From contig OY987251.1 of NCBI GenBank assembly GCA_963920765.1, forward strand, positions 12,899,219-12,963,218: a DNA stretch of 64,000 nucleotides. Direction: 5' to 3'. This stretch comes from Ulota crispa (Eukaryota; Streptophyta; Bryopsida; Orthotrichales; Orthotrichaceae). Below, piece after piece: positions 3,684 to 49,049 of this stretch (positions are counted from its first letter, which is position 1; each line of letters opens with the position of its first letter). The notes under the pieces were generated by a model. It saw nothing but the letters and a program-made list of their open reading frames with translations, made no database searches and was not told the origin of the DNA. A program made the position numbers and the translations under genes.

Positions 3684-3687
3684 TTAA

Positions 3688-3774
3688 CCCTTAAACGTCG
3701 GGGTGGGTCACCGTGGGTACATGGGGGCCCGTGTATACCCAGGGACAATTTTCGTCCCCGTCAACGCTTAAGGA
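3688..3774. mobile_element. L: 87-bp TTAA mini-element
   Basis: Flanked by TTAA at 3684-3687 and 3775-3778. The left end CCCTTAAACG pairs with the right end CGCTTAAGGA. The interior is GC-rich with facing GTACATGG/CCCGTGTATACC segments. It matches the other TTAA/CCC elements in ends and target and is the shortest copy seen. Confidence 0.65.
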
Positions 3775-3778
3775 TTAA

Positions 3779-4643
3779 GAAAATTGTGAATTGAAAAACT
3801 TGCTTCCTCCTAGACACTCCATCTTAATAATGTGATTAGATTTTACTTTACAATTATGTGCTTAGATTTCATGAATGTAGTCAAACATGTAAAAGCAGTA
3901 GGCAAATAGATATCATGTAAGTCCTACAATTGGGTGACAACATGGCAACTCTGAGGATTTTTTTGTTGCTAGGAAATTGTTGACCACTTTGAAGTATTAC
4001 GAAATTGGTGTTAGTTTTAAGATGACTCTTATACCTCTTTGCATGAGATGAGTAAAGTATACGTGAAAAGGCATCAAATTTGGTTATTGTGTTCTGTTTA
4101 CCTGATCCTTTGAGATAAAATAATTGATGTTTTTTTCTTAGTTTTGCTTTTTGTATTTGATACCATACCTACTATTAATAAAAGATAAAAGAATGTTAAG
4201 GATATTGCTAGGCTTTAATGTGACATTCCTTTCGGTGCTTAATGCATATTTTAGAACAGAATAAGCATAATTTCTGCCATTATAATAGAAGGTTGTAAAT
4301 AGTAATGTAGATACTTAATAAGACTTGTTTGAAGTAAACTATTTAGTATTTGAATGTGTTGAACCTTCAAAAAACTTGTCTCTTTGTACCAACTCACAAG
4401 CTTGCTTCACAATCTTATCACATTGTCACTTCGATAGAAAATGCCTTGGAGGAGGACAACAAACAATACAAAGACTATCTACTTATTACAATGTACGAAG
4501 TATAGCTATAGCTACATTGAGGCAATGTAATCACACAAAAAGGTAATTAATCACAAACTTTAATTGATTTTCTGAAAGTCAAGTTAACTGTTTTTAAATA
4601 AAATTGTTGACACAATTTAAATTATAAAGTAGTTAAATATTAC
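3779..4643. other. AT-rich intergenic sequence
   Basis: No gene or element boundary is recognised. A 73-codon open frame at 4325-4546 has no domain. Confidence 0.45.
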
Positions 4644-4647
4644 TTTA

Positions 4648-5561
4648 TCCCTTAAGATTCTTTCGTGTTTAGAGGTTCAAAATTGTTTCAAAATACTAGT
4701 CCCCAAATCAAGGTCAAAATCTTCATTGAAACTTACTTTTTCACAAATTCAACCGTATGATCCTTTGGTTGACTTGCACAAGTACATTGTCCCAAAATTT
4801 CAGAATGAACATTCCCACCAATTGCAAGATCAACGTGCTTAAATTTCAAAATGTAGGCTTTTCTAGTCCTTCTAGAAGGTGAAGTTTTGATTTTCAAACT
4901 TTTTAGAGAAAAACACATATGTTGTATTTGTTGTGCAATTTTTGCAATATGTTGGAAAATGGGTTGAAAGCATATGTAAAAAAATTCAACCAAAAAAAAA
5001 TTGGATTTATTTTTACAAAAATTGTACAATGAAAGGTATTCATGAATGAAAGATATAACTAATATGCTAATAAGTTTTGGAAGAATTTGAAAATTGTTAA
5101 TCCCAATGGTGAGAATGCTCTAACAAACAATAAGTAATTTTCATTTTCATTTTCATTTGTAATTTTTCAAAATTGAGAGTAAAAGATAATTTTATATGTT
5201 TTTTCTACCCTCTTCCTACCTTCATTGCCCGCAAAAGAAAACTTCTTGTAACTCTTGCCTCATTATTTGGAATTGAGTGATTCAATTTTTTTTGAGTAGG
5301 TATCAATCTATACAATTCTATAAAAAAAAAATTTGAAAAATTTAGAATATAATTTTTGCTGCCCGGTTTGACATTGAAATTGAAAAAACCTTTTAACTTT
5401 TGCATTGCTTATCGGAATGACATGAAATAAAGTTTTACATGTAGATTATGATGAGTGGCATCCATCCTAAAAATTTCATGAAAAATTTCCAAATTATGAA
5501 GTCAATAGAGCCTGTCCGAGTTCTCATAAAGCCCAAAGTGGGCTCCTTGGGCCTTTAGGGG
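4648..5561 (-). mobile_element. A1: 914-bp TTAA element
   Basis: Inverted copy of the element at 26433-27343, with homology along the whole length. The right end GCCTTTAGGGG abuts TTAA (5562-5565). The left end TCCCTTAAGATTC abuts TTTA, a one-base change from TTAA. A stem-loop AGCCCA/TGGGCT lies just inside the right end (5530-5544). No coding capacity. Confidence 0.85.
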
Positions 5562-5609
5562 TTAAACACCCCATTTATTTGCTTAAGTTTCTATGTTTAT
5601 TCCCTTTAA

Positions 5610-6241
5610 TCCCTAAATGCCTGAGGTCTTTTATAACCTTTTTGGAAATTTCTCTATATTGAACAAAAATCCAAAATTCTAATAAGTTGTATCTAGTTTT
5701 TTAAATCGTAACCGTACAAATTCAAACTAGATATGTTGGAGATACATAGGAAAAGAAAACATAACAATTTCAACTATGGGTTGATAGATTGTAATATTTG
5801 ATCATGAGGGTGTTAAAACTGCAAAAATGACTTAGAGTATTTCAATCCTCTTTTCACATGTTGAATTTAAAAAATTGGTCACCCAAAAAATACAAGGTTG
5901 AGGGACATAACATACATAACTCCAATCACTTTACGGCTTTTCAAAATCTTTTCTACAATTATTGAAAATGAGTTTCTAGTGTAAATATTTCTCCAAGATC
6001 TTGTGTATTTGAGGCCCATTTCCAAGAGCTCTCAATACTACAGAGAATTAAGACCCTTACACAAAGTCTTGAATAGAATAATCATAATCAATCATTTTCA
6101 AAATAAGACTTTCAATGCCAAAACTAGATTGCAAAAATAATAGTCCAAAAATATAAACTATTAAAAATAGCAACTTAGCTAGATTTTTGCACTTCAAAGT
6201 ATTACCAACAACCAAAATTTGGTGCTTTAAGCATTTAGGGG
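5610..6241 (+). mobile_element. B1: 632-bp TTAA element
   Basis: TTAA at 5606-5609 and 6242-6245. Ends TCCCTAAATGC and GCATTTAGGGG form a 10-bp inverted match. The body is homologous to 18910-19557 (inverted) and 43473-44117 (same direction). A short stem-loop built on ACCAAAATTTGGT lies near the right end. The minus-strand 64-codon frame here is not a gene. Confidence 0.85.
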
Positions 6242-6245
6242 TTAA

Positions 6246-7676
6246 GTACAACTTTCAACATGCACTTCCGATTTTTTATATAGGCACTTAACAATGTTGT
6301 TATTTTTTAAAATTCAATGTAAATTTGGTGTAAGGCACTATTGATGAGTTTTATAAGCTGCCTAAGTAGTAAGGGTTAATGCAACAAATCATTTGAGCTT
6401 TTTTAGTCAAATGGAAATTGCTAATCAATTTAATAATTGTTATAGTCAATGAAATTATTACTTAGAATTTTGGATATTCAATTGGAGGAGATTTACACCA
6501 AAATAAAAGCAAGGTACCACTTTAATTGAATGACATGTCATTTATTGAATATGAACATGGAAAGCAAAAGTTCTGGATTTAAAAAATGTAAATACCAATT
6601 TGCGCGAATTAGCACAAATTCAATAGGGAATACAATCAGGGGGCGGGCCTTGTTTGTTTTAAACCTAGCAACATAAATTCCAAGATAAATTAAATAATTA
6701 GAATCCATAGTTGTGAAACCAAAACCTTCATAATCTTCAAAAAGAAGTAGTAATATTAAAGCTCAACTAGATGGGCAAGAATGATGCTTTATAGAAAGCA
6801 CTGTTAATTTTCGTTTTCTAGTATTTCAACTAAACTTCTCATCCATGGCATTTGATTTGAGTATAAATCCAACAACAACTACAATCGTTTTGATTGTCAG
6901 CCATAACTACAAAACTTAAAGTGGTTTCTTGATAGGGACTGAAGAAGTGATTCATTCTAGAGAATTATCCCAAAGTATATAATTTCGTTTTTATTCAAAT
7001 AGCAAATTAAAATAAATTCCATTTCAAAGTTTGTCATAATAATTTCACTTCACTATCAAAGTTGAATTCAGGGTCTCTAAAACTGATTCAATTCCAAAAT
7101 TATCAAAATTTATCGCTTTTTTTTTATAAATAAAGATCATTGGGGTATATTTTTTTTCCAAAAATGGAAAAATAGAGTTGCTAAGCTGTAAGGGATGGAC
7201 TCAATTTGACTAAACTAACAGGTTGTTCACACTATGTCCCACATCCCATCTTGGTAAGTCCAACCTTAATGTGAGGTTCCAACTTAGGGGTAGTTCACAT
7301 TGTGTCCTACATCTCATCTTTGTAGGTCCCATCCCAATGCCAATTCCCAACTTACTTGAGTTATTAAAAGTAAAAAGCAATTCTAAAGAAAGATATGAAT
7401 ATTATATGCAAAATATTAATGGGACTTGGGCTAAAAGTTGGGTCTAGCAAAGTGGTCAATCCAAACCTTGAATGAGTCCCACTTCTTTTGTTGTCAAAAC
7501 TTCCAAAAATGCTACCATGTAAGCAATTGGGACATAGGACTTGAGATGTAGTATGAAATGCCAAGTGCCAACTATTAACTTTACACCAATCAAATTCTCA
7601 GATTTTAGTGGAGCGTGTCAAATAATGTGAACCGTTCCTAACCCTCACAATATTCACAAAATTGTAAAATAAATCC
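6246..7676. other. AT-rich intergenic sequence, one weak repeat
   Basis: No gene is recognised. The segment near 7220-7600 is weakly similar to about 53280-53600 (shared AAAACTTCCAAAAA and neighbouring motifs), so it may be an old dispersed repeat. Element boundaries are not resolved. Confidence 0.4.
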
Positions 7677-7984
7677 CTACACTAAATATTGCATTTAGGT
7701 TGCCTTGGCAATTAGGTTGCCTTACCCGAGTAAGTTACCTCATGACTCATCAGTTGGCCACTTGGAGGCACATGCAACTCACTAAATATTTAGATTTCAC
7801 ATGGTTTGTGACTTGGAAGCCACTAGTTTGTCTTTTTGTTGCTTCATTATTGTTGATAGACTATCTAAAAATGGTTTGTTGCAATGATTTTTGATGAAAG
7901 ATAATAGAGCAGTAGTAAATATTTATATAGTGTGAAATGTCAAGAAATTAGTGTGGGGCAACCTAAACTCAATATTCAGTGTAG
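7677..7984 (-). mobile_element. M-family MITE copy 3
   Basis: 308 bp, CTACACTAAATATTGCATTT at left and CAATATTCAGTGTAG at right. The interior is opposite in direction to copies 4 and 5 (here GCCACTTGGAGGC and TTCACATGG). Open frames that cross it are spurious. No convincing TSD, so the superfamily is open. Confidence 0.85.
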
Positions 7985-8610
7985 CATTTTCAGATTTGGA
8001 TGCAAAAGTGCAGAGTTATTGCTTGGATCCATTTTCAAACCCACTTTCAAACTGCCATTGCCCTTTCAAATATGCAAATGATGGGCGTGGCAAGAACTCT
8101 TCTGCGTTGTACCCTTTTTCCCCTTGCACAATCACCAAATTTGTCATAATGGATGGCGACTTGCTTTTTGCTTTTTGCACACTTGGAAACATGCAATTCG
8201 TCAGAAGTTTGGATTGTGAACCCCCAACTGATGATCAGCCCTGGAAAATGCAATATCCCTGACGCAATTGATGAAGTTTTCTTGCAGTGCTGGAGATACC
8301 CTTAGTTGGCTGCCAATGAATAAAATCCTCAGAGGCGCACAGATGGGCTTTGGACCACACAGCGCCACAGGGGGGAGCTGTTTTCAAGTAGTTCCCCCTG
8401 TAGCCGTCCAGTTTCCACGGTTTGAAGCCTAAATATCAGGAATGAGAATCAATCACCAGAGGCTGTCTGCAATAAAACACCACCAGTCCACCACGAAATG
8501 GCCCAGTGTGTTCTATTTCATTTTTATAAATGTATTATTTATGTACCTTGCGCTCATTACAGCCACCACTAAGATTCTTCAGTTCAACTCCAAGTTAAGT
8601 TTTTTGTTTC
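7985..8610. other. Unassigned sequence, locally GC-richer
   Basis: No gene is recognised. Overlapping frames of 103 and 68 codons on opposite strands (7951-8262) show no domain. The 8230-8480 stretch is more GC-balanced than its surroundings. It may be a decayed element or gene remnant. Confidence 0.35.
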
Positions 8611-11569: not shown

Positions 11570-13960
11570 TATGAATTTCAAAACTCATTCAAAGTTAATG
11601 TCTCATCTCTTGTTTGTAAAGAAACAACAGTTGCTTCTATTGAAGAACGTTGAGTCCAAACCTGTGAAGGAAACACAAACTATGGAGATGGCAGCACAAA
11701 AACCATGTGGCATGAGGAAACAGCAGTCAAAGTAGAATCAGCCTTGATAGTCTTCCTCAAAATCCAAAGATAAGTTATCCGAAAACCTAACTTTGGAAAT
11801 ACTAAGAATGATAAATCCAAGTTACAGCGTGACACTTGTGATTGTCATAGCTGTGGTAGGCCTAGACACTTAGCTGAGGACTGTACAACTCCAAAGCACT
11901 TTGTAAAAATGTATGAGGAATTGCAGCAGCTTAAGTCCAAGAACATGGAAAGTCATACACTAGATGCTCCATCACTAGATAGTGTAGATTCCAAAAATTA
12001 TATGGTGAGCATGGATAAGTCTGAGGTACAATGTGACATTGCCTTGCTGGACATTACCACCACTCATACAATCTTGCGAGATCCAAAGTACTTCACATTT
12101 CCTAGCCACATAGTTGAAGCTTGGCAAAATTGTGATGTCATCACAATTGCTAGAAGACGAAATTTCCAATTCTGTAAAGGCCAGGCAACTATAATATTGC
12201 CTGGGGGGACCCCCCTCAAGTGTGCACATGCAATGTACTTTCCCAAAACTTTCCAAAGTCTGATCAATTATCAGGATCTCAGAGCCAATGGGATCCACGT
12301 CCACACAGAGGTGAGGAATGGTGAAGAGGTCTTTGAGCTCAGGCAAAGGCCGTGATTCTTTGCCACTGCACATGCGGAAGCCAATGGCTTGTATGGACTG
12401 AAGAACTCAAGTAGTACTACGAGCCCTACTGATGACAATCCACTCACAAGTAAACATCCCAAGGGATCTGTTTTCTTTGTGATTTCCCCAACCAAGATTG
12501 GAATGTGGCATGGTAGACTAGGGCATTCCGGAACCATGATGTTTCAGCACATGCTACCAATACTCATAGGACATAAAGTTTGCCCAAGTGATGCCAACAA
12601 GATGGGGGCTGTGTTGCCTACTCTCTAGAAAAGCTGATTCAAAAGCCATCACAGTGGAAACTATCAACGGAGTTGCCACGAAGACTTCAAAGACTGTAAG
12701 GTGATGTCTGTGGACCCATCAACCCTTCATCAAGACCCTTCAACTCTAGTTTTGATCATGTTACACCAGATGACTCCAAAACAAGTTTTGACTAGCCCAT
12801 TGGTTAGAAGCCTTGAATACTGAGTATTCTTCCTTTAGGAAGCATGGTGTCTTTGGTCCCTTAGTCACTTACCTCCACACTAAGCCTATTGGTTTCAAAC
12901 TCATTATTACCAAGAAATAAAATGCCCAAGGGCATATCGTTCAGTACAAAGTTCATTTAGTTGCCCAAGGATTCACTCAAAGACCTGGAGTGGATTATAA
13001 CCTCACATATTCTCATGTTATGGACTCGGGCACTTTCCGCTATTTGTTAGATATGGATGTATAGTACTCTTTAGATACTCAACTCCTTGATGTCGTGAAT
13101 GTCTACTTTTATGAGCCCTTAGATGTTGACATATATATTAGGCCCCTACCTGAATTCCTCTTGGAGATCCCTTCAGAGGACACTTAGGGATCCTATTCTG
13201 GACTCCAACTCCAGAAAACCCTCTATGGTCTAAAACAAGCCGGTAGGTTGTGGTATAAGCACTTACGTGATTTCTTGATTCACCACAAGTTCCAACATGA
13301 TCAAACTCTATCCTATCTCTTCACTTTGAAGGAGATTACTAGTTTTGTTATTATTTTAGTACATGTGGATAGCCTTAACCTTGCAGGCACCCCAGGCACT
13401 TATAAGTATACCATGAGCTTACTTACCACTCAATTTCAGATGAAGTTGTTAGGTAAGACTACTTTTTGCCTAGGACTTCAGGTGGCTTATTTACCTGATG
13501 GCTGTATTTTTCTCCATCAAACCACTTACACTCAAACCTTGTTGAAAAGGTTCCATAAGGACCAAGCTAGTCCACTTTCTGCCCCCATGATGGGGCAAAG
13601 TAGAACATTTGATGATCCCTACCGTCCTTGCGAGGAGGAGGAGGAGTTCTATGACATGAACAGGTACCTCGCAGCCGTAGGAGCTCTTTTGTACTTGTCT
13701 ATGTACACACGCCTAGATATTTCCTTTGCCACAATGGTGCTTGCTAAGCATAGCAAAAAGCCCAGAGTGCGTCACTGAAATGGAATTAAGCATCTATTCT
13801 AATACCTTAGGGACACAGAAGACTTCGGCATGTACTACACCAAGGGTGGAACCCCAAAAATCACTGGGTACGCTAATGCTGGTTTCAATACTATTATCGT
13901 ATACTCATCATCAACTTATTCATGACATTGGAATGCAGCGACTCAATACTTTGGAGCAAG
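11570..13960 (+). pseudogene. Copia gag-pol remnant, non-functional
   Basis: A CCHC zinc knuckle (CHSCGRPRHLAEDC) lies at 11843-11884. A protease segment follows, with DITTTH where D-S/T-G is expected. Then comes a GAG-pre-integrase segment (WHGRLGHSG) near 12507. Reverse transcriptase motifs start near 12920, with in-frame stops. The YGLKQAGRLWYKHL segment is near 13225. The VDD catalytic motif is changed to VDS (near 13365). RNase H reads GYANAGF where a catalytic Asp is expected. Only about 300 bp lie between pre-integrase and reverse transcriptase, so the integrase core is deleted. Confidence 0.92.
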
Positions 13961-14499: not shown

Positions 14500-15355
14500 T
14501 TTGGAAATTTTTTGTGAATCTTTAAGAATCTTCAAGAATCTTTTGGGAATCATTGAGAATCTTTTCAGGATTTTTAAGAATATTTAAGAATCTTTTTGAG
14601 ATTTTAGAATCCTTGAGAATCTTTTAGGAATCTTCATGAATCTTTGGAAATCTTTTGGAATCTTTTCAAGTGTTTTTGGAATCTTTGAGAATGTTTGAGA
14701 AAAATTGAGAATCTTTGAGAATCTTTTAGGAATCTTTGAAAATCTTTTGAAATCTTTAGAAATCTTTTCAAGTTTTTTTGGAATCTTTGAGAATGTTTGA
14801 GAAAAATTAAGAATCTTTGAGAATCTTTGAGAATCTTTTTGGAATCTTCAAGAATCTTTGGAAATCTTTGGAAATCTTTTCAAGTTTTTTGGAATCTTTG
14901 AAAATGTTTGAGAACAATTGAGAATCTTTGAAAATCTTTGAGAATCTTTTTAGAATCTTTGAGAATCTTTTGGAATCTTTGGGAATTTTTTCTAGTTTTT
15001 TTGGAATCTTTGAGAATGTTTGAGAACAATTGAGAATCTTTGAGAACAATTGAGAATCTTTGAGAATCTTTGAGAATCTCTTTGGAATCTTCAAGAATCT
15101 TTGGAAATCTTTGAGAATCTTTGAAAATCTTTTAAGAATCTTTGAGAATCTTTTAAGAATCTTTGAGAATCACTTGGAATCTTTGGAAATCTTTTCAAGT
15201 ATTTTAGAATCTTTGAGAATGTTTGAGAACAATTGAGAATCTTTGAGAATCTTTGGGAATCTTTTGAGAATCCTTTTTGAGATTCAAAAAATCTTTGAAA
15301 ATCTCTAAGAATTTTCAAGAATCTTTTTGGAATCTTTGAAAATCTTTTTTAAATC
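14500..15355. repeat. (GAATCTTTGAGAATCTTT)n-like satellite inside the CACTA element
   Basis: About 850 bp of irregular tandem units built on GAATCTTTGA and GAATCTTTTGG. A higher-order unit of roughly 120-150 bp contains GAGAATGTTTGAGAACAATTG. Minus-strand frames rich in K-D-S-Q-R-F-S-K are translations of this array, not genes. Confidence 0.9.
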
Positions 15356-16209: not shown

Positions 16210-16622
16210 GGGAATTGATATGTGTACCACACCTTTCCAATTACTATACCGCACCACGGGGTAAATTTTAGATTTCTACCATCAAAAAGCTAAATTTGAA
16301 GATTTTGAATTCAGATTTGGGCTTAGAGACCATGGTATTGTCTAGAACCATAAAAAAAAGTTGCAATTCAACAACACCCAATGAAAAAGTTTAGTTAGGG
16401 AGAAAATTGTTAATTTTACTTTTGTTTGCAAAAAAAGATAAGCTTTTTCATTGGGTGTTGTTGAATTGCAACTTTTTTTATGGTCCTAGACAATATCATG
16501 GTCTCTAAGTCCAAATTTGAATTCAAAATTCTCAAACTCAAATTTTTGATGGTAGAAATCTAAAATTTACTCCAAAGGTGTGGTACAGTAGTTCAAAGGG
16601 TGTGGTTCACATATTAATGCCC
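16210..16622. mobile_element. X1: foldback element, long inverted arms
   Basis: GGGAATTGATATGTG at left, CACATATTAATGCCC at right. Arms of roughly 180 bp pair around a short centre. The best-conserved arm part is AAAAAGTTGCAATTCAACAA facing its inverse. TTAAAAGAT and TTAAAAAAT flank it (8 of 9 match). Homologous to 47669-48075. It inserted in the CACTA element. Confidence 0.8.
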
Positions 16623-17291: not shown

Positions 17292-17720
17292 TGAAAATAA
17301 TAATTTAAAAATGAAAAGAAATAGAATTGAACAACATAAAATACGTAATAGAAATCAACAACAAATTAACAAAAAACTGTAAATAATCAACAGAAAATCA
17401 ACAGAAAAGTACTCAAATCAACTTGACCAAATTCACAAAAAAATCAACAGTTTTTGGTTGAAATTCTGTTGATTTTGTGCTGAATTTTCTACTAGTGACT
17501 TTTCCTTCTCTATCTTGTATAGTAAGCAAACCCTACTTGGATAATAACACTTGTTATTTCTTTTCCTTGCATATTTTGTTATATCTCTTTTGTGTCCTCG
17601 TTGTGTTTTCTATTTCCAACTCTTTCCTTAGAATCTGTAGCTCTATCACAACAAAAAGGACCGAGAGTCTAAGAAAACGGTCAAACCCAGCTTTGAGCAA
17701 ACCAGGGGAGATGCTCTTAA

Positions 17721-18642
17721 CCCCTAAAGGACCGCGGCCTTTTTTTGTGAATTTAAGTGTAAAACTGCTACTTTTCAAGGAGTGAATAGAATAGAAAAAA
17801 AAAAAATCCAACCATAGGATCTTGGCCTAGACTATGGGAGGTACTTGTTGAGAAAAAATCAGCTCAATCTAAATTTTGAGGAGTGAGATATTTACATCCA
17901 AAGTGAAGAAAAAGGATTTTTTCTTTATTGCCCAAAATTTTCAGAAGCCTTTGACCATTGATAACCCAAAAAAATTACTCTATGCAAAGTTGAGGATTTC
18001 TTTTATCATGTCCAAAACCAAGTTAGGTATGTGTGGGAGAATTTTTAGATGAATTGGACATGTGGATCATACTTTGTAAAATCCTGCAATGCCAAAAGGT
18101 CTAGAATTCTACAAATACACTAGGCAAAATTGGAGGATTTATGTAAGATTTAGAAATATGAATTATTTTGATCCAAAAGTTGAAAACCAAGGAATCTTAG
18201 TCTACTACAACTTGGAAAAAAAAAATACACAAAGAGCTCTAAAAATTAAAGCAAAAAGTTCTACAAAGGGGAAAAGGAATGGAGGTTTGGGAGTCCCATA
18301 CCTACCCGCAAACTAAAACTTCTCATAACTCTCATCTCATCTATCAGAATTGAATGATTCAAAGCTTCCCAAATACATAAAAATCTAGAGAACCAATTTC
18401 AAAAAAAAGAAAAATTTAAACTTCAAAAAAAAATTTGGCTGCCCAATAGTCCCCTGTTTTTCAGTTATCCAAGCATAATTTCTTCAATAAATGTCAGAAT
18501 GAAGAAAAAATTAGATGTCCACATAGATTTTTGAATTCTACATCTTCAATAAAAGTTTCAAAAAATCACGCAAAGTAGTTTAACCATAGGTACATGCCTG
18601 AAATCCCATTTGTCCCGCAAAGGGACAACGGTCCTTTACGGG
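17721..18642 (+). mobile_element. C1: 922-bp TTAA element
   Basis: TTAA at 17717-17720 and 18643-18646. TIR CCCCTAAAGGACC / GGTCCTTTACGGG. A 7-bp stem TTGTCCC/GGGACAA lies just inside the right end (18610-18628). Full-length homology to copies at 27574, 35513 (inverted) and 48084, and to a truncated copy ending at 37611. Non-coding. Confidence 0.9.
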
Positions 18643-22783: not shown

Positions 22784-22861
22784 TTACAAATTTTATTTGG
22801 TTTTTCAATGGTTGCTGCACATAGGTAAAGGAAAAATGGATAGAACCATCCACAAAATTAA

Positions 22862-31680: not shown

Positions 31681-31683
31681 GTG

Positions 31684-34075: not shown

Positions 34076-34077
34076 CC

Positions 34078-34362
34078 GTACACTAAATATTGTGTTTAGG
34101 TTGCTCTACACTCATTTTTCAACATTTTACACTCTATAGATATTTACTACTCATACAAAAACTTTCATCAATAATTACTACAATAAATAATTTTTTAAGA
34201 TTTTGACAACAATGATGATGCTGAAAATAAATTAGTAGCGTCCACGTTGTAAACTATGTGAAATCTTAAAATCTAGAAAGTTGCATGCACTTCCAAGTGA
34301 CTAAATGATGAGGCATGAGGTTACCTAATTGTCAAGGCAACCTAAATGCAATATTCATAACT
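34078..34362 (+). mobile_element. M-family MITE copy 5
   Basis: Left end TACACTAAATATTGTG, right end CAATATTCATAAC (worn). The interior matches copy 4, including the uninterrupted GTTGTAAACTATGTG site. Confidence 0.82.
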
Positions 34363-34364
34363 TA

Positions 34365-35508: not shown

Positions 35509-35512
35509 TTAA

Positions 35513-36452
35513 TCCCTAAAGGACCATTGTCCCTTCGAGTGACAAATGGGATTTCGGGCATGTACCTACAGCTAAATTATTTTTTGTAATTTTTTGAAAC
35601 TTTTATTGAAGATGGAGAATTCAAAGATCTATGTGAGCATCTAATTTTTTCTTCATTCTGACAAAGAAGTTATGCATGAATAACTGAAAAGGGAGGAGAA
35701 TCGGGCAACCAAACACAAAACAAAAAAAACTACATTTTTTAAAATAAAATTTTGAAATTGGCTTTAGATTTTTAGATATGTGGGAAGCTTTGAGTCATTC
35801 AATTTTGATAAATGAGATGAAAGTTATGAGAAATTTTAGTTTGCGGGTAGGTATGGGACTCCCAAACCTCCATTCCTTTCCCCCCCTTGTAGAACTTGTT
35901 GCTTTACTTTTTTGAGCTCTTTGTGTATTTGTTTTTTGACTTTTTTTTTTGCAAGTTGCAGTAAACTAAGATTCCTTGGTTTTCACCATTTGGATCAAAG
36001 TAAATCAGATTTCTAAATTTTACATAAATCCTCCAATTTTGCCTAGTGTATTTGTAAAATTCTAGACCTTTTGGCATTGTAGGATTTTACAAAGTATGAT
36101 CCACATGTCCGATTCGTTTGAAAATTCTCCCACACATACCTAACTTGGTTTTGGACATGATAAAAGAAATCCTCAACTTTGCGTAGAGTAATTTTTTGAC
36201 ATATCAATGGTCAAAGGCTTTTGAAACTTTTGGGCAATAAAGAAAAAATCCTTTTTCTTCACTTTGGATGTAATTATCTCACTCCTCAACATTTAGATTG
36301 AGCTGATTTTTTCCCAACAAGTACCTCCCATAGTATAGGCCAAGATCCTACGATTGGATTTTCCAAAAAAAAAAATTACTATTCTACTCACTCCCCCAAA
36401 AGTGGCAGTTTTCACTAAAATTCAGAGAAAAAAGGCCACAGTCCTTTAGGGG
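35513..36452 (-). mobile_element. C3: 940-bp TTAA element
   Basis: TTAA at 35509-35512 and 36453-36456. Ends TCCCTAAAGGACC and CAGTCCTTTAGGGG. Inverse of C1, C2 and C4. The stem TTGTC/GACAA, extended by one mismatch and one pair, lies just inside the left end (35527-35545). This is the same biological end as in the other copies. Confidence 0.9.
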
Positions 36453-36472
36453 TTAACTCCATTCAATTTTAT

Positions 36473-36763
36473 CTACACTAAATAGTGCATTTAGGGTGCC
36501 TTACTTTGGAAAGTTACCTCATGACACATCACTTGGACACTTGAAGGTGCATGCAGTTCTCTCAATACTTGAACTTCACATGGTTCATGACTTGGACGAC
36601 ACTAGTTTGTTTTTCCATAGCTTTACTATTGTTGCCAAGCCCTTTAAAAGTTGCTTATTGCAGTAATTATTGCTGAAATTTACTATAGTAGCTAGAAATA
36701 TTTATATAGTGCAGAATGTCAACAAATTAAAGTGAGGCAACCTAAATGCACTGCTTATTGTAG
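36473..36763 (-). mobile_element. M-family MITE copy 6
   Basis: CTACACTAAATAGTGCATTT at left, GCACTGCTTATTGTAG at right. Interior in the direction of copy 3. It separates C3 from the truncated C5. Confidence 0.87.
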
Positions 36764-36774
36764 TTTTTCCTTCC

Positions 36775-37611
36775 TTGCTTGCATTGTGGAAAGGTGGGGA
36801 ATCCACAAACCTACGTGCTGCCCATCTAATTTTTGCTTCATTTTGGCATTTGACAAAGAAGTTATCAAGAATTTTCCTAAACTAGGGGAGAAGGAGCAAT
36901 TTGGACAAGGCCTCTCCTTTATAAGTGATTGTTGATTCCAAAGAGGGTCAATCCATATGCGCACAAGGTGTGCACATTTGGGCAAAGGGAAGTGGAGTGG
37001 AAAGGGCCAGTTTTGGGAGACTCCTACCCCTCCATTCCTTTAACCATTGTAAATTTTGGTACTTTAGTTTTTTGGGCCATTTGTGTGTTTATTTTTTGAA
37101 TTTTTTTCCCAAGTTGCAGTAGATTAAGATTCCTTGGTTTTCATCATTTGGATCTAAGTCATTCATATTTCCAAACTTTACATAAAGCCTCTAGTTTTAC
37201 CTAGTGTGTAAGCAAAATTCATCCTGGTATTGCAAGATTTTTTTGAAGTATGTTGTATATCTCCAATTGATCTGGAAATTCTCCAACATATACCAAACTT
37301 GGTCTTGAACATGGAGAAAATAAGCCTCAAATTTTCATGAAGCAGTATTTTTGCTACAAAAGTGGTCAAAAGCTTTTAAAATTTCCAGCTAGGAAGGAAA
37401 ACAAACTTTATTTTTCACTTTATATGTCAATATCTAAGTCTTCTACATGTGAAATGAGCCGTTTTTTTCCCCCAAGTACCTCTAGTAGTCTAGTGCAAGA
37501 TTTTATGATTAGATTTTCAAAAGAAACTTTTTTTCTTATCTTTCTACTAATTCTCCCAAAGGTGGCAGTTTTTGGTGATTTTTGAGGAAAAAGGGCTTGA
37601 TCCTTTAGGGG
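36775..37611 (-). mobile_element. C5: truncated C-family TTAA element
   Basis: Homologous to C3 in the same direction (CATCTAATTTTTGCTTCATT, GACAAAGAAGTTAT, AAGATTCCTTGGTTTTCA). The right end ATCCTTTAGGGG is followed by TTCAA, a worn TTAA. About 90 bp of the left end, including its stem-loop, are missing. Confidence 0.8.
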
Positions 37612-39135: not shown

Positions 39136-39670
39136 AAAAAAATTCCCCTTTTTTCTTCATAGTTAGACTCTTGATCATGTATTAAAAAAACCAATTAAAA
39201 ATCTTTTCACTTACAGAGACAAAATGTAATTTCATCTCTATAAATGCATGAACATTTTTAAAAAATCCTTTTATAGTGCCCACTTTGTCACTCTCCAATG
39301 TTCTAGATTCTAGTGTAAAGCAGGGTCTCTAAATCCGAATGTGAATTCACTCCTGATGATAAATATCTAAACCCTTGCAACTTCTGGCAGGCTGAAAACA
39401 AAAAACAGAGCTTTTCCAACCTGGCCCTATATACACGTAAGCTTAAATGCAGTAAACCGAGCCCAGAGCAAGGGGCGTGACTTAGCAAGAGCATTTTTTT
39501 CATTCTTTTTGTCTCAAGCCCCAGTCCAAGGAGGGGATCTTATTGATTTTGTGGGAATGTGGGATAAACGAGGGGATCCAGATTTCTCCAGACCCGAATT
39601 CATGTGACCTGATTCACACAAGTTTTAGGCCATGACCAAATAAACACTCAATTGTCATGTTAACCCTTAA

Positions 39671-39881
39671 CCCCTGAAGGGCACAAAAGCCCTTTGTGGC
39701 CGTATGTACGGACGTATTTGAGCTGTTCTGAGGGCTTTTCAATTTTTTTTATGCACCCCCATCATACAACCTTTCAATATGAATGGTTGTAACACTTAAT
39801 TTCTAACTGATTCAAACTTCTAAATATTAATTGCGACCGTATTTGGTATCATATCTCCAGAGTCCATGTGACATTCAGGGG
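39671..39881 (+). mobile_element. D1: 211-bp TTAA element
   Basis: TTAA at 39667-39670, TTCA (worn) at 39882-39885. Ends CCCCTGAAGGGC and ACATTCAGGGG. A stem CACAAA/TTTGTG lies just inside the left end. Homologous to D2 and D3. Another TTAACCC lies immediately to the left, so it sits 3 bp inside a second TTAA. Confidence 0.83.
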
Positions 39882-39885
39882 TTCA

Positions 39886-40112: not shown

Positions 40113-40116
40113 TTAA

Positions 40117-41021
40117 CCCCTTAAGGACCACACGACCATATTTTGGTCGCTGGGAGTGGTTTTTGGCCTGTAGGTTGAAATTGCTCAATAATTTGGATTT
40201 TGGTCTTGAAGTACGCATGTGATCACAAGAATTTTGCATTCATCTAAAAAAATAACAATGCAATTGGGTATGTGAGTTGAAAAATAATGGTATTTATATG
40301 GCATGGTTTCAAAATACGTATCCATTTTTTGGCAAAGATGGATCAAAGCAACAACTCAATACATCAAGTATGCAAGAAGAATGTCAAATTTCAATTGCAT
40401 AATTCTAAAAAATTTCAAATTGCTTAAGAAATATGCTTGTATTGTCTTCATATATGGGAGTAGTATAATTTTAGTATTTGAAAATCTACTGAAAAGGTGT
40501 TGTCATTTTGGCTTTAAAATTTGTCATCCTACATTTATGACCAATTCTTGATTGTTTTCACCAATTGGATTTTCTAGAATAATTATCAAATTTCTTGTAG
40601 AACCGTTTTAGGGTAGCAAAGAAAGTGGGGTTTTTGACCCTTTTTTCCACTTAGCTACAATTTATGATTGCTATTTTTGTCTATTTTGTGTGAAACTAGT
40701 CTTGTTGGAAAGGTGGGAAAACTTGCTTTCTAGAAATGTAAGGCTCTTCTCAATCAAAGCTTGCATGAAAGGTTAACATTCAAAACTAAACAAGAATGAA
40801 ACATAAGAGATTTTTGCATACGGCTCACTCAATCATTATAATATTTCACCTCCAACAATAGATCTAGCTGAAATTTTGGTGCTTTACAATAAACAAGGTG
40901 TACTTCCCATTTGTACGGTTGGATTATTGAAAATGGGTTCATATTTGAGTCAATTCCAAGTCTAAGCTTATAGCCCCTATTTTCAGTGGATTCTGTGAAA
41001 ATGGGTGTGGTCGTTAAAGGG
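40117..41021 (-). mobile_element. E1: 905-bp TTAA element
   Basis: TTAA at 40113-40116 and 41022-41025. Ends CCCCTTAAGGACCACACG and GTGGTCGTTAAAGGG. Inverse of E2. The stem CGACCA/TGGTCG with loop TATTT (AAATA on the other strand) is at 40133-40149, just inside the left end. An 82-codon frame inside has no domain. Confidence 0.9.
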
Positions 41022-41029
41022 TTAAGGGC

Positions 41030-41100: not shown

Positions 41101-41747
41101 AAGGCAGATGAGGAACGCTAGTTATAAAAAAAGAACACTTTGCAGGATGGAAAATAACCGGTTTTCATTTAATTTTTTAAAGAAATGATCATGAAGACGT
41201 GGTTTATCATGGAAGGCCAAAAATAGCCTCATAAAATGTACATTTTTGTTAGGTAGCCCAAATTGTGAGAAGATTTAGAAACATGGTGTTAGATCCCATG
41301 TTGCCCATCTTGCAATTTCATGAGGTTAGCATGCATTGTTGACTTTTACAACTTTTGAAAATAGCAATATAATGAATGGGCACTTGTCACACCATTGTAA
41401 AGCATTGTAGAGCAATTGTTGAGGGGTAATCATGGTGACTAGCTTGGTGTTTAGGAAGTAACCCCTAAATGTGAGGTGGGTCACCATTATTGCCCCTCTA
41501 AAGTGGCCTCCAACTTGTCCTTGGGTTCTTAACAAGGGGACTTGGTTTCAAGAACCCAAGGATTTGTTGAAGGCCATTGTACAGTAACTCTGAAATGATG
41601 TTGCAAGTGCCCACCCATTATAATAATGTTTCCAAAGGTTGCAAGAGTCAATAGTGCACGCAACCCTCATGAAAATTGCAAGAAGAGCAATATGAAATTT
41701 GACACCATGTTTGTGAATCTTCTCATAATTTTAGTTATTTAAAAATA

Positions 41748-42071
41748 AGAAAAATTTCATGGATACTTCTGAAGTTTGCAATTTTTTCATAGATACTCCT
41801 AATTTTATAGAAATATCACAAATACCCTTGGGCCAAAAAAATTAGGCTTTTGTTTTGTCATGCGTGTCACTTGCTTCTCCCTTTGTGCACATATTTCTTC
41901 TTTCTTGTTGTGCTTGTGCACAAAGGAAGAAGGGAAGTGTCTTGCACAACAAAACAAACATCTAATTTTTTTGACCCAAAAGTATTTGTGATATTTCTGA
42001 AAAGGCATAAGTGTCAATGAAAATATTGCAAAATTCAAGGATATCTATGAAATATCTATGAAATTTTCCCT
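41748..42071. mobile_element. K3: MULE-like foldback, uninterrupted
   Basis: About 324 bp. AAAATTTCATGGATACTTC at left, ATCTATGAAATTTTCCC at right, with pairing along both arms up to CTTGTGCACAAAG at the centre. The 9-bp TSD is TTAAAAATA (41739-41747) and TTAAAAATG (42072-42080). Confidence 0.83.
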
Positions 42072-42789: not shown

Positions 42790-43016
42790 TTAATCCTTAA
42801 ACGACCAAAAGACCCTTTGCAACCAGTACAATACATGGTATTTTTCTTTTATTTGGAATGGATCCACACCTCTACTACATTTGAAACCAACAAAGAAGTT
42901 GGAGAATAGATCAATGGGGTTCTAGTGAGCTATTTGAAATCCAAAATAAAAATTTCTTATTGGTAGCAAATGACAATTATATGTTAGGGTATATACTATG
43001 CCCTATGGTCATTTAA

Positions 43017-43240
43017 CCCCTGAAGGGCCCTTGGGCTTTGGAGCTATGGTACCAAATACAGTTGCAACCAATATTCAAAAGTTTGAATTAGCTAGAAATT
43101 AAGTGTTACAACCATACATATTGAAGGGTTGTATGATGGTAGGTGCACAATTGTTTTTGAAAAGCCCTCAGAGTAGCTCAAATACGTCTATACATACAAT
43201 CATACATACGGCCGCAAAGGGCGTTTGGGCCCTTCAGGGG
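43017..43240 (-). mobile_element. D2: 224-bp TTAA element
   Basis: TTAA at 43013-43016 and 43241-43244. TIR CCCCTGAAGGGCCC / GGGCCCTTCAGGGG is perfect over 14 bp. A bulged stem GGCCGCAAA/TTTGGGCC lies at the right end. Opposite in direction to D3, with which it shares the middle TTAA. Confidence 0.88.
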
Positions 43241-43244
43241 TTAA

Positions 43245-43468
43245 CCCTTGAACGGCACCAAAGACCTTTGCGACCGTATGTGCATCTGTATATACAGATG
43301 TATTTGAGCTGTTCTGAGGGCTTTCCAATTTTTTTTATGCACCCCCCATCATACAACCCTTCAATATGTATGGTTGTAACATTTAATTTCTAGGTGATTC
43401 AAACTTCTAAATATTGGCTGCAACCGTATTTGGTACTGTATCTCTAGAGCCCATGTGACGTTCATGGG
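43245..43468 (+). mobile_element. D3: 224-bp TTAA element
   Basis: TTAA at 43241-43244 and 43469-43472. Ends CCCTTGAACGGC and GACGTTCATGGG. Head-to-head with D2, giving a 450-bp imperfect palindrome. It shares its right TTAA with B3. Confidence 0.88.
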
Positions 43469-43472
43469 TTAA

Positions 43473-44117
43473 CCCCTCACCGCCCATGGTATTTTTGAGT
43501 ATCTCAAAATTTGCTTGAAAGTGAACAAAATGTTGGCATTTTGATCAATCTTATCAATTTTCTCTTAAGCGCAATTGTGAAAATTCAAAGTAGACATGTT
43601 ATAGATCACATAGGAAAAGAAATCACAACAATATCATTTATGGATTGAAAGATTATAATGTTTGATCATGAGGGTGTTAAAATTGCAAAAGTGATTTGAA
43701 GTCTATCAATCTTCATTTTGCATCTCAAACTCAAAATTGAGGGTACCAAAAAAACATGAGTATGTAAAGTATAACATGCTTAACCCCAATCAATTTACGA
43801 CTTCTCAAAATCTATTCTACAATTTTTTTAATTGAATTTTTAGTGTGATTTTTTCTCCAAGTTCTAGTGTACTTGAGGCTCATTTCCAAGATCCTTCAAC
43901 ACTAGAAAGTGAAGATTTGCAATGGACATCCTTGCACAAAATCTTGAATAGACAAATCACTTTAATTCATTTTCAAAATCAAACTCTTGATGCTAAAACT
44001 AGACTTCAATAAGAATTTAAAAATAATAATAATCACTAAAAAAATTTTGAAAAAATGTTACAAATCTCTAAACAAAATTCAGAGGGGCTTGATTTGGGCC
44101 CCTTGGGCGGTGAGGGG
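43473..44117 (+). mobile_element. B3: 645-bp TTAA element
   Basis: TTAA at 43469-43472 and TCAA (worn) at 44118-44121. A perfect 14-bp TIR, CCCCTCACCGCCCA / TGGGCGGTGAGGGG, which differs from the TIRs of B1 and B2 although the bodies are homologous. A stem GGGGC/GCCCC lies near the right end (44084-44102). Confidence 0.88.
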
Positions 44118-44128
44118 TCAAGGGTTAA

Positions 44129-45034
44129 CCCTCTAAAGACCACACGTATTTTCCCAAAATCCACTAGAAATAGGGGCAATAAAACCAAATGTGCATTTGG
44201 AACAAATATGGACCCAATTTGAATAATCCAACCGTACAAATGTGAAGAACACCTTGTTTGTTGTAATGTATCAAAATTTTAACTAGATCTACCATTGAAG
44301 GTGAAACATTATAATGATTGAGTGAGCCGTACATGGAAAATCTTTAGTTTTCACGCTTGTGTGGTTTTGAATGTTAACACTTCATGCAAGCTTTGATTGA
44401 GAAGAGCCTTACATTTCTAAAAAGCAGGGTTTCCCACCTTTCCAACAAGACTAGTTGCACACAAAATAGACAAAAATAGCAATCACAAGGTGTAGCTAAG
44501 TGGACAAAAAGGGTCAAAAATCCCATTTTCTTTACTACCCTAAAACGGTTCTACAAGAAATTTGAGAATTGTTATGGAAAATCCAATTGGTGAAAGCAAT
44601 CAAGAATTGGCCTTAAATTTAGGATGAATTTTTTTCTAAATAAAATGAGAGAATCATTTCAATGGATTCTCAAATACTACAATTATACTACAACCATATA
44701 AAGAAACAATACAAGCATATTCCTTAAGCAATTTGAAATTTTTAAGATTGCACAATTGAAATGTGGCATTCTTCTTGGATGTTTGATATATTGTGTTATT
44801 GCTTTAATTCATTTTTGATCAAATATGGATACATATTTTGAGGCCATGATGTATAAACACCATTATTTATCAACTCCTATATCCAATTCCATTGTTATTT
44901 TTTGGGTTGGATGCAAAATTCTTGTGGCCACAAGCGTTCTTCAAGATTATTTTCCAAATTATTGAGCGATTTTACTGTATAGGCCAAAAACTACTCTCCC
45001 CGAACCAAAATATGGTTCGGTGGTCTCTAAAGGA
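44129..45034 (+). mobile_element. E2: 906-bp TTAA element
   Basis: TTAA at 44125-44128 and 45035-45038. Ends CCCTCTAAAGACCACACG and GGTGGTCTCTAAAGGA. Inverse of E1. A 7-bp stem CGAACCA/TGGTTCG with loop AAATA lies at 45001-45019, just inside the right end. Confidence 0.9.
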
Positions 45035-45039
45035 TTAAG

Positions 45040-46290: not shown

Positions 46291-46299
46291 CCATTCATC

Positions 46300-47660
46300 C
46301 ATGCGGAGGATAATGAGAAGGTTAGTTCAAATTGGCCCTAAAATAGGCATTTTCCAATTTCAAGAATATTCATTCTCATTGCCCATTTGGCAAAAATTAA
46401 ACAAAGACACTCTCTATAGTCCCAAATAAAGACAAGTGCATACATTTACACCATTAATCCTTGCGCAATTTCCCTCAAGATATATGCCACTAGGGACAAC
46501 ACTATTTTGTGAGCCAAAATGGTGAGCATGTGAGCAGTGAGCCAAGATTTGGCTAGCAGGAATCAATTTTGATCTTGAAATCAATGATTTAAAAAAAAAG
46601 TAACTTTTTCAAAAGATAAAAGTTTAAAATGCACAATTATGGGGCCTTATGTACATGATTACCTGTGAAATTGAGTATTTTGACAAAAAATCTAAGCTCA
46701 CCGCTCATGGCTCATTGATCCCTGCTCATGAAATAGCATTCCCCATGCCACTAGCCCATTCCAACAACCAATTATTGCAAATCTTCATAGATGAAGAGAT
46801 GGCAAAATTTTCCCATGCACAAAAATCTCAAGGCTAGAACATTTTGTCAGTTTTATCTCTTCCAAATTAAGTAGTAGGTTCTAAATGCAATGCTAACAAA
46901 AATTAAAAAAAAAATTGAGCTAAATTTACATTAGGAATTATTTTTGGACAAGACATGTTTTTTCATTTATAAAAAGAAAAGAGAAAAAAAAAAAATTCAC
47001 TTATATTTTGTGGAAAAGTGTAGGATCATAGACCAAAATACTGTTAAAATTAATCACACAATCTTAAAGACCATTGTTTAAGGGTTAATGTTTAATTTTT
47101 GGACATTTTCAGAAAGTAAGGAATTTGGAGGTGTTGACAATACATGTAAAGTGCATAAAGTTGGCCCTAGGCTCTCTTGTTTTAATGGGGTATAAATGTT
47201 AGGGTGCACTTTCCTTATCTAAGAGCCCAGCCTTTTGTGAAAATTTCCAGCTAACAAGACACAAATCTTTATTCTTTGGGCTCATCCAAAACTTGAAGGA
47301 TATTCTGAGCATCAATGCATGATGCTGCCACTCAAACAAAACCTCTCTGCTGAATTGTGCTAGTTTGTGATATCTCTATTGGACTCGATTGGATTCATAA
47401 ATTCCAAGCTCTGGCATTTATTTGTTTTAGGGGTAATTACCAAACTTCTCGAGACCTTTCATAAAGTGATTGACAGTTTTGAAAAAAAATCAACTTGTCC
47501 TAGCCGGCAATAAACCTCCAAGGTATAACTATTTCTACTTAGCACTTTGTTTGATGACCACTTGTGTTTGATAGAGCACTACAATCCTATTGCTGACAAT
47601 TGTGCAAGCGCAAAAAATCTCTTACAAATGAATATTCAAGTGAATTGAAACAAAGCATGA
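46300..47660. other. AT-rich intergenic sequence
   Basis: No gene recognised. A solo TTAA-type tip (TTTAAGGG then TTAA) near 47090 has no partner found. Confidence 0.4.
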
Positions 47661-47668
47661 TATCTTAA

Positions 47669-48075
47669 GGGAATTGATATGTGCACACCGGGGGTTGATA
47701 TTTGCACACCCCTGGGGTAAATTATAGATTTCTACATTTAAAAAGTTGAATTTGAGAATTTTGAATTCAGATTTGGACTCAGAGACCATGATTTAGTTTA
47801 GAATCATAAAAAAAGTTGCAATTCAACAACACCCGATTAAAAAGTTTAACTAGGGAGAATAGTATTACTTTTACTTTTGTTTATAAAAGAAAATAAGCTT
47901 CTTCATTGGGTGTTGTTCAATTGTAACTTTTTTTTATGGTTCTAAACTAAACCATGGCCTCTAAGTCCAAATTTGAATTCAAAATTCTCAAATTCAACTT
48001 TTTGAGTGTAGAAATCTATAATTTACCCCAAGGGGTGTGCAAATATCAACCCCCGGTGTGCACATATCAATTCCC
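47669..48075. mobile_element. X2: 407-bp foldback with 8-bp TSD
   Basis: GGGAATTGATATGTGCACAC at left and the exact inverse GTGTGCACATATCAATTCCC at right. Arms of about 185 bp. The 8-bp TSD TATCTTAA is at 47661-47668 and 48076-48083. The TTAA of the right TSD is also the left TTAA of C4. Homologous to X1. Confidence 0.87.
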
Positions 48076-48083
48076 TATCTTAA

Positions 48084-49015
48084 CCCCCAAGGGACCAAGC
48101 CCTTTTTTCAATGAAAGTTACTAAAAACTGCCACTTTTGGGGGAATGAGTACAAAGGTAGGAAAAACAATTATTTTTGGAAATCCAACCGTAAGATCTTG
48201 CCCTAGACTATGGGAGGTAATTGTGGAAAAAAATTAGCTCATTCTAGATATAGAGGAGTGAGATATTGACTTTTGAAGTGAAAAAAAAAGTTTTTTTCCT
48301 TGCTGCCCAAAAATCTCAGAAGCCTTTGATTGCCTCTAAATAAATAAAAATGCTCTATGCAAATGTGAGGTTTATTTTTCCCATGTAGAAGACCAAGTTA
48401 GGTAAGTGTGGGAGAATTTTCAAATGAATTGGAGGTGTGAATCATATTTTGTAAAATCTTGCAATGCCGTAAGGCCATCAAATTTGCATATACACTAGGC
48501 AAAATTGGAGGATTTATGTAAAATTGTGAAATGTGAGTTACTTTGATCTGAATGACAAAAACCAAGGAATCTTAGTCTACTACAACAAGGAAAAAAAAAA
48601 GGTCAAAAAACAAATTCACAAAGAGCACAAAAAGTATAGCACCAAAGGCAAAAGGAATGGAAGTATGGGAGTTCCGTACCTGCTCGCAAACTAAAACTTT
48701 TCAATCATAAAGTGGAATTGAATGATTCAAAGCTCCCTACATATGTATAAATCTAAAGAACCAATTTCAGATTTTTATTTTGAAAAAATGTTATTTTTAA
48801 AAAAGTTTTTGGCTGCCCAATCTCCACCTTCTTCAGAAATTCATGCATAACTTCTTTAATAAATGTTGGAATGAAGAAAAAATTAAATGCCCTCGTAGTT
48901 CTTTGAATTCCTCATCTTCCATAAAAGTTTCAAAAAATTATACAAAGTAATTTAGTTGCAAGTACATGCCCAAAATCCCAACTGTCCCCCGAGGGGACAG
49001 TTAGTCCTTTAGGGG
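48084..49015 (+). mobile_element. C4: 932-bp TTAA element
   Basis: TTAA at 48080-48083 and 49016-49019. Ends CCCCCAAGGGACC and TAGTCCTTTAGGGG. A perfect 8-bp stem CTGTCCCC/GGGGACAG, loop CGA, lies just inside the right end (48982-49000). Confidence 0.9.
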
Positions 49016-49049
49016 TTAATAAAGAAGTTGTGCATTATAGATATTGTGG

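Follow-up and report, generated by a model that had tools for sequence, protein, structure and literature searches.

The TTAA-flanked elements in a 64,000-nt stretch of the Ulota crispa genome (the window, the whole stretch analyzed here) are very probably non-autonomous MITEs of the piggyBac superfamily; DDD transposases of the piggyBac type, encoded in the same genome, would have mobilized them in trans. The superfamily is a known one, to which they add new members from a poorly documented host, a moss; an initial annotation, made from the letters of the window, had already spoken of a plant-type genome. In plants the occurrence of piggyBac is described as occasional and studies as limited (PMC12732532).

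Bounding elements by flanking TTAA, with one changed base tolerated, and a [CT]CC tip at each end yielded 17 elements of 87–940 bp (Table 1), every one of which starts with CCC or TCC at both ends. Perfect TTAA was present at both flanks in 13, and 4 had a single altered base at one flank. Together the full-length elements amount to 10,522 bases; the family library covers 11,191 of the 64,000 bases of the window. The initial annotation had listed about 21 elements in at least nine families over some 12 kb; we recovered the 17 plus one 593-bp partial copy, not all 21, and full-length similarity (after revision of two boundaries) gave eight families, near the nine proposed, with coverage somewhat under the earlier figure. 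Its flanks, tips and size range held. When pairs of a tetramer plus CCC/TCC were sought with TIRs matching at 9/14 or better and a spacing of 60–1200, TTAA returned 15 pairs and each of 15 other palindromic tetramers returned none in the window, which led us to reject chance TTAA; one of the 15 pairs is a composite of two neighbors (43017–43468), and another was later re-bounded, with 43473–44117 replacing an end at 44124. Across the whole genome there were 147 occurrences of TTAACCCNNTAAAGG vs. 14 of the reversed pattern. Rfam at gathering thresholds had no match in the window.

Table 1. Bounded elements and associated features, in window coordinates.
Feature	Span	Span with flanks	Strand	Remarks
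87-bp element	3688–3774	3684–3778	.	TTAA both sides; palindrome GGGACGAAAATTGTCCC centered at bp 25, right end
914-bp element, 911 family	4648–5561	4644–5565	.	Flanks TTTA/TTAA
632-bp element	5610–6241	5606–6245	.	TTAA both sides; end homology to transposase-bearing element of L020
922-bp element, 930 family	17721–18642	17717–18646	.	TTAA both sides
648-bp element	18910–19557	18906–19561	.	TTAA both sides; carries palindrome AGGACAGAATGTGTCCT
Inverted-repeat host element	20812–21377		.	Receives 20993–21233; context, not piggyBac
241-bp element	20993–21233	20989–21237	.	Nested inside another repeat; paralogues show empty site
911-bp element	26433–27343	26429–27347	.	TTAA both sides
933-bp element, 930 family	27574–28506	27570–28510	.	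TTAA both sides
247-bp element	32310–32556	32306–32560	.	Flanks TCAA/TTAA
940-bp element, 930 family	35513–36452	35509–36456	.	TTAA both sides
593-bp partial copy, 930 family	37019–37611		.	Family-library match
211-bp element, 224 family	39671–39881	39667–39885	.	Flanks TTAA/TTCA
905-bp element, 913 family	40117–41021	40113–41025	.	TTAA both sides; carries palindrome CGACCATATTTTGGTCG
224-bp element	43017–43240	43013–43244	.	First in four-element array
224-bp element	43245–43468	43241–43472	.	Shares a TTAA with each neighbor
645-bp element	43473–44117	43469–44121	.	Flanks TTAA/TCAA
906-bp element, 913 family	44129–45034	44125–45038	.	TTAA-to-TTAA element
932-bp element, 930 family	48084–49015	48080–49019	.	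TTAA both sides

The joined flanks of the nested 241-bp element matched 39 places in the genome across the junction. Among the nine of these empty-site paralogues that were fetched, eight carry a single TTAA and one carries TCAG. A second empty site, found by comparing positions 2815–2893 of locus L003 with one paralogue in L023, likewise has a single TTAA, with a 6-base gap beside it. Because the paralogous empty sites carry a single TTAA, the tetranucleotide is the target and is duplicated on insertion, as the initial annotation had supposed. Genome-wide searches with eight of eleven further junctions (one query being one base short) gave no additional empty site, their lists being swamped by adjoining repeats.

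The transposase, predicted to lie elsewhere in the genome, was sought with the piggyBac profile PF13843 (DDE_Tnp_1_7), which listed 120 matches in U. crispa (best E 1.3e-73), distributed over all 11 chromosome-scale contigs, and none in 14 control genomes. None of the 120 listed matches falls within the window, which at that sensitivity bears out the earlier statement that no copy there codes for a protein. PF13843 was detected in all seven pieces tested, and in the PDB the moss protein matched, over the catalytic part, T. ni piggyBac (6x67, E 4.1e-20) and bat piggyBat (9c0f, E 5.8e-17). Of 20 loci, 7 have all three catalytic-D motifs and 8 have C-x2-C-x7-C-x2-C-x5-C-x3-C further downstream, 3 of these 8 in another frame. 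The cysteine-rich C-terminal piece alone had no Pfam match; its cysteines line up by position with those of piggyBat, in an alignment to the known domains that is not significant by itself, and at the motif level they point to the C-terminal cysteine-rich domain expected of the superfamily. The DDE domains are diverse, with identities down to 29% within U. crispa. Stops occur in 110 of the 120 listed matches (introns may account for some), and matched pieces free of stops extend over 300 or more of the 349 positions at only four loci (L024, L028, L031, and L032), in two pieces each for L031 and L032; the third catalytic position of L028 is N, and L031 is the only one of the four with an enclosing pair, a weak one (11/16).

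Seven of 19 fetched transposase loci are enclosed by TTAA with pyrimidine tips (11–15 of 16 matching), forming elements of 5.0–6.0 kb. Three others, L019 (10/16), L030, and L031, were left out of the seven, their pairs being weak or mixed and the left tip of L030 belonging to a 930-family MITE; the remaining nine had no enclosing pair. With any tip allowed and at least 12/16 matching, TTAA gave 10 pairs (the 7 with pyrimidine tips included) vs. 6 for the other 15 tetramers combined. At a looser 11/16, AATT (22 enclosing pairs) exceeded TTAA (13), and the ends of L021 (11/16) therefore rest on their pyrimidine tips and palindrome. The window element at 5610–6241 is linked to the transposase element of L020 by its ends (15/16 and 27/30), and the two fall in the same end cluster.

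A subterminal palindrome near bp 25 of one end, a feature of the piggyBac superfamily, is clear (at least 5/6 pairs, centered at bp 24–25.5 from the tip) in 15 of 28 elements; 13 fall below 5/6, and 4 of these 13 score 3, which is close to controls. Over 16 end-homology clusters, the palindrome profile peaks at bp 25.0 with 4.04/6 pairs (mean 2.17, sd 0.32). The palindrome was first spotted by eye in the same ends used for its first test; the first free scan, over bp 10–60, gave scores of at least 7 in 10 of 23 elements vs. 11% of random windows. Genome-wide, TTAAYCC-N{2,32}-GGAC(N7)GTCC occurred 2,104 times, vs. 13 for the reversed pattern and 39 with AATT in place of TTAA. The center lies exactly at bp 25 in 86 of the first 100 listed GGAC(N7)GTCC sites, which come from one chromosome and include same-family copies and so are not independent. 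Arms of TGAC/GTCA, not chosen from the studied elements, gave 47 matches vs. 26 reversed, with 16 of the 47 at bp 25 (p 8e-13 assuming site independence). A small sample of eight new single ends gave two (p 0.064), short of significance. By eye, the palindrome of the 247-bp element (32310–32556) lies deeper than bp 25 and adjoins an apparent short duplication.

Palindromes of MITEs and transposase elements resemble one another at a mean best of 11.0/17, vs. a null of 8.2 (0/5000). Four of 12 MITE ends have a close partner among the transposase elements, including AGGACAGAATGTGTCCT with L026 and CGACCATATTTTGGTCG with L021 (15/17 matching in each case); one of the four pairs, 5610–6241 with L020, has end homology anyway, and for the 930, 224, and 241 ends the transposase elements offer no partner. 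The palindrome is stronger at the 3′ end in two of seven transposase elements. From family to family the palindrome changes its letters but hardly its position, so that, to judge from the sequence, it is probably a family address that would tell each transposase its own MITEs. In the mechanism we propose, piggyBac-type DDD transposases from the 5–6 kb elements would mobilize the MITEs in trans: the core domain of a transposase dimer would read the tip, the paired C-terminal cysteine-rich domains would read the bp 17–33 palindrome in the manner of the insect (piggyBac) and bat (piggyBat) enzymes, and the transposase would then excise the element and reinsert it at a new TTAA.

Two other classes of MITE deserve comparison. 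Kolobok, the other well-known TTAA superfamily and one named in the initial annotation, shares the target duplication seen here, and there are reports of it in red algae and chlorophytes (PMC9587614), but its termini are 5′-RR...YY-3′ (PMC9587614), the opposite of the CCC...GGG of the window elements, and its transposase differs from the DDE_Tnp_1_7 proteins found inside elements with similar tips; with CCC or TCC at both ends of 17/17 elements, we rejected this very unlikely assignment. Tourist-like (PIF/Harbinger) or Stowaway-like (mariner) MITEs are well-known groups in plants (PMC10004981), and an empty TTAA site alone does not separate duplication of TTAA from duplication of TTA/TAA or TA within a site that merely reads TTAA. 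That reading is highly improbable all the same, given that all four bases are kept on both sides of 13/17 copies, that sites joining tip and palindrome strongly favor TTAA over AATT, and that the transposase inside coding elements with similar tips is of the piggyBac kind.

It is also conceivable, though rather unlikely, that these are ordinary piggyBac MITEs whose bp-25 palindrome binds no protein and simply reflects the common ancestry of the ends. The tip consensus is common to many families, so the ends are related; a clear palindrome is absent from about half of the elements; and the binding role draws on sequence and on analogy with animal complexes. Against this, the palindrome holds its place although its letters vary (bp 4–17 differ in 78 of the 86 listed bp-25 sites), the TGAC/GTCA arms likewise peak at bp 25, and in two animal complexes whose structures are solved the cysteine-rich domains bind at this same position (PMC7351741; PMC11707139). 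Since piggyBac is reported mainly from animals, fungi, and protists (PMC12732532), the assembly might have been contaminated by some animal or fungus that lives on the moss. We rejected contamination as exceedingly improbable: the listed transposase matches are spread over all 11 chromosomes, MITE copies lie on the same contigs, and copies are nested within and adjacent to further high-copy repeats of the same chromosomes.

piggyBac is a leading animal gene-transfer tool, and a moss in which piggyBac transposases are diverse and some two thousand ends fit a single pattern offers a natural laboratory for the superfamily in plants. The T. ni element (IFP2; PDB 6x67/6x68) resembles the moss piggyBac-type elements in its TTAA target, CCY tips, and DDE_Tnp_1_7-type catalytic domain, and its left-end palindrome, at bp 17–33 and bound by cysteine-rich domains (PMC7351741), corresponds to the moss center near bp 25. 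Apart from the host, the moss elements differ in that the palindrome letters vary by family and in lacking a counterpart at the opposite end: piggyBac has one palindrome on each end (PMC11707139), whereas in 15 of 16 moss elements the 160 bp next to the other end held no second copy above background, the exception being the 87-bp element, which is so short that the searched stretch overlaps itself. piggyBac measures 2,472 bp (PMC10140906), vs. 5.0–6.0 kb for the TIR-bounded moss coding elements. piggyBat of Myotis lucifugus has an imperfect palindrome at bp 19–30 of its left end, bound by cysteine-rich domains, and none at its right end (PMC11707139), and is one-ended like the moss palindromes; it repeats the palindrome further in, whereas within 400 bp of the 5′ end of seven moss elements no further copy stands out (best 9–12 of 17). 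Among plants, a review lists an angiosperm PiggyBac MITE superfamily by TIR and duplication (PMC10004981), and a Ceratopteris repeat table gives 1,230 PiggyBac elements (PMC6890710); the relevant portions of these sources do not describe transposase-bearing elements, empty sites, or end anatomy.

The bp-25 palindrome, derived from plant sequence, fits what cryo-EM has shown for two animal transposases and offers a simple, testable code pairing each transposase with its own DNA. A broader proposal, to which we give even weight for and against, is that piggyBac across kingdoms may keep a fixed ruler, a transposase-binding palindrome centered at bp 25, whose letters would have diversified within one moss genome into an address system by which many lineages each recruit their own MITEs.

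Three window families were searched genome-wide. The 914-bp element at 4648–5561 has 39 other scored matches at 91–92% identity over whole copies, its final ~95 bp being 93–99% identical at many places; the element at 17721–18642 has 39 other long matches at 85–90%; and 38 of 40 other scored matches of 44129–45034 cover the exact TTAA-to-TTAA length at 90–92%. The long matches are thus 85–92% identical to the window copies (a few shorter or degenerate rows lie at 79–84%), which does not point to current activity. In the flanks of 10 loci, a small and non-random sample, families from the window account for 468 of 29,708 bases, and the window is therefore probably unusually dense in them.

A scan of the window for palindromic tetramers with a CCC or TCC tip, paired with their mirror image 60–1200 bp away (terminal inverted repeats matching at ≥9/14), returned 15 pairs at TTAA and none at each of the 15 other palindromic tetramers. 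Fixing the boundaries gave 17 elements of 87–940 bp, 13 with a perfect TTAA on both sides and four with one altered base on one side, which bears out the TTAA-flanked, CCC/TCC-tipped group claimed in the initial annotation. Together they sum to 10,522 bases and, compared over their full length, fall into eight families; coverage of the window by the family library, with a partial copy at 37019-37611 counted in, comes to 11,191 of 64,000 nt. In one array of four adjoining elements, two of the three junctions are a shared TTAA and the third is TCAAGGGTTAA, as if the duplicated TTAA had been reused as a target itself.

Compared with the window copy, 39 of 40 other long genome matches of the 913 family were 90–92% identical and one 81%; the 911 family had 39 long matches at 91–92%, and the 930 family 39 at 85–90% plus three shorter pieces at 79–84%, all these numbers being best-scoring candidates and not copy numbers. 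Such identities (85–92%) suggest past bursts of movement.

The element at 20993-21233 is nested within another repeat, and its joined flanks match 39 other places in the genome straight over the junction. Nine fetched copies of the host repeat carry TTAA (8/9) or TCAG (1/9) at the site. Empty sites thus hold a single TTAA, and insertion therefore made two from one. In a second case, between two fetched genome loci, the element at L003 2815-2893 is missing from a paralogue in L023, which shows a single TTAA and, adjoining it, a 6-base gap. These paralogous empty sites remove the possibility, named as a refuting one in the initial annotation, that TTAA is part of the element. The host repeat is one of three inverted-repeat elements with TTTCATGGATACCC-like ends in the window and has 39 other scored genome matches.

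We searched a genome of 274.8 Mb in 157 contigs, with the window on chromosome-scale contig C10; the published assembly, cbUloCris4.1, has 408 scaffolds, 275.00 Mb and 11 chromosomes (PMC11803377). The piggyBac transposase domain DDE_Tnp_1_7, proposed initially as one of two kinds of enzyme to look for, was found in at least 120 matches over the 11 chromosomes (116 of 528 candidates scored), with none in 14 control genomes. Ten of the 120 matches lack an internal stop. Against PDB structures, the reading frame of transposase locus L028 matched Trichoplusia ni piggyBac (6x67, E 4.1e-20) and piggyBat (9c0f, E 5.8e-17), its third catalytic position being N; a C-terminal piece of L020 aligned around the third catalytic D (piggyBac, E 0.00025; piggyBat, E 0.00091). 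Three D motifs were present in seven of 20 loci (L019, L020, L022, L024, L026, L030, and L032), and a downstream cysteine motif in eight of 20, in three of these in another frame. Identity among seventeen DDE domains was 29–80%, and several distinct transposase lineages therefore coexist in the genome. Pairs of matches with equal or near-equal score in opposite orientation (C7:18203169/18223004, C2:36765124/36779670, and C10:676128/785346 in the genome searched, G000) were also seen, suggesting recent inverted duplications.

Seven of 19 transposase loci (L017, L018, L020, L021, L022, L026, and L027) are enclosed by TTAA with pyrimidine tips, 5,019–6,002 bp apart. Irrespective of tip, enclosing pairs at ≥12/16 numbered 10 for TTAA (seven with pyrimidine tips) vs. 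six for the 15 other tetramers summed, and at 11/16 AATT (22) exceeded TTAA (13). Ends of the 632–648 bp window group cluster together with those of the coding element L020. Ten ends of the small non-coding elements (MITEs) in the window, and two at other loci, were set against the seven coding elements by their 17-base palindromes; mean likeness was 11.0 vs. 8.2 when shuffled (sd 0.43; 0/5000 shuffles). The closest pairs are tabulated below, and ends of the 930, 224, and 241 families had no close partner among the seven (7–9 of 17).

When the moss ends were listed, palindromes were seen where insect piggyBac and piggyBat have theirs. In the former, the palindrome at bp 17–33 of one end is the binding site of the paired cysteine-rich domains, and the core domain contacts bp 7–16 (PMC7351741); in the latter, it spans bp 19–30 of the left end and is absent from the right (PMC11707139). 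In a first test, at least five of six base pairs matched at a centre 24–25.5 bp from the tip in 13 of 23 elements vs. 5.9% of 437 control positions. A set of 28 elements, two of them re-bounded, had 15 at ≥5 and 24 at ≥4 pairs, and the profile over 16 end-homology clusters peaked exactly at 25.0 (4.04; next 2.81; mean 2.17, sd 0.32). Because the pattern was first noticed in those very ends, we ran a whole-genome test with TTAAYCC, a free gap of 2–32, and GGAC(N7)GTCC, the arms being taken from four examined ends. It gave 2,104 matches vs. 13 reversed; with AATT in place of TTAA there were 39, several holding a TTAACC tip further in. Among the first 100 matches listed, all on C1, the centre was at bp 25 in 86 and bp 24 in seven; bp 4–17 differed in 78 of these 86, and the 7-base middle held at least four A/T in all 86. 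TGAC/GTCA arms, picked independently of the examined elements, gave 47 matches vs. 26 reversed, 16 of the 47 centred at bp 25; several of these resemble one family, and p is 8e-13 on the assumption of independence. Eight new single ends, a small sample, included two with ≥5 pairs (p 0.064). A second copy at the opposite end was not found in 15 of 16 elements checked. The better palindrome was at the gene's 5′ end in five of seven coding elements, L022 among them at background level only.

PiggyBac is said in passing to have been identified in plants (PMC10813416; PMC10140906), is listed among plant superfamilies in one review (PMC10794571), and is mentioned for angiosperm MITEs in another (PMC10004981); a fern repeat table gives 1,230 PiggyBac elements (PMC6890710). 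Among open-access papers, in part the best 15–30 of 93–1,115, none turned up that describes a native piggyBac transposase from a moss, and the main text of the Ulota crispa genome note has no word starting "transpos" or "repeat" (PMC11803377). We file the Ulota elements as new piggyBac superfamily members in a poorly documented host, and the palindrome near bp 25 as a new, testable observation.

Window coordinates of individual features
Position	Feature	Detail
3688-3774	MITE	Closest palindrome L017, 13/17
5610-6241	MITE	Closest palindrome L020, 13/17
18910-19557	MITE	Closest palindrome L026, 15/17
40117-41021	MITE	Closest palindrome L021, 15/17
43013-45038	Array of TTAA elements	
20812-21377	Inverted-repeat element (host repeat)	Ends resemble TTTCATGGATACCC
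32559-33217, 41741-42066	Inverted-repeat elements	Ends resemble TTTCATGGATACCC
7676-7986, 22860-23170, 34076-34372, 36463-36770	MITE-like family, ~300 bp	Remnants near 1547-2660
16258-16573	Long inverted repeat	Matches sequence in L020 and L031
47668-48076	Long inverted repeat	Matches sequence in L020 and L031; directly precedes TTAA element at 48080
11774-13778	Broken reading frames (ORF list)	Copia-like retrotransposon by eye
~55400-60800	Putative ankyrin/RCC1-repeat gene exons (ORF list)	Minus strand; IBtk-like by eye
14807-15169, 31404-31743	Minisatellites	Read as long repetitive open frames

The ~300-bp family is a second MITE-like group with ends ACACTAAATA..TTTAGGTTGCC / GGCAACCTAAATGCA, distinct from TTAA-CCC. 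The plastid psaA has 8htu and 6l35, both Physcomitrium photosystem I, as its best PDB matches. Elsewhere in the genome, 46 psaA/psaB fragment matches lie on C1-C10, away from the plastid contig, i.e., plastid DNA is scattered through the nuclear chromosomes; the plastid contig itself is 112.5 kb vs. 123.54 kb published (PMC11803377).
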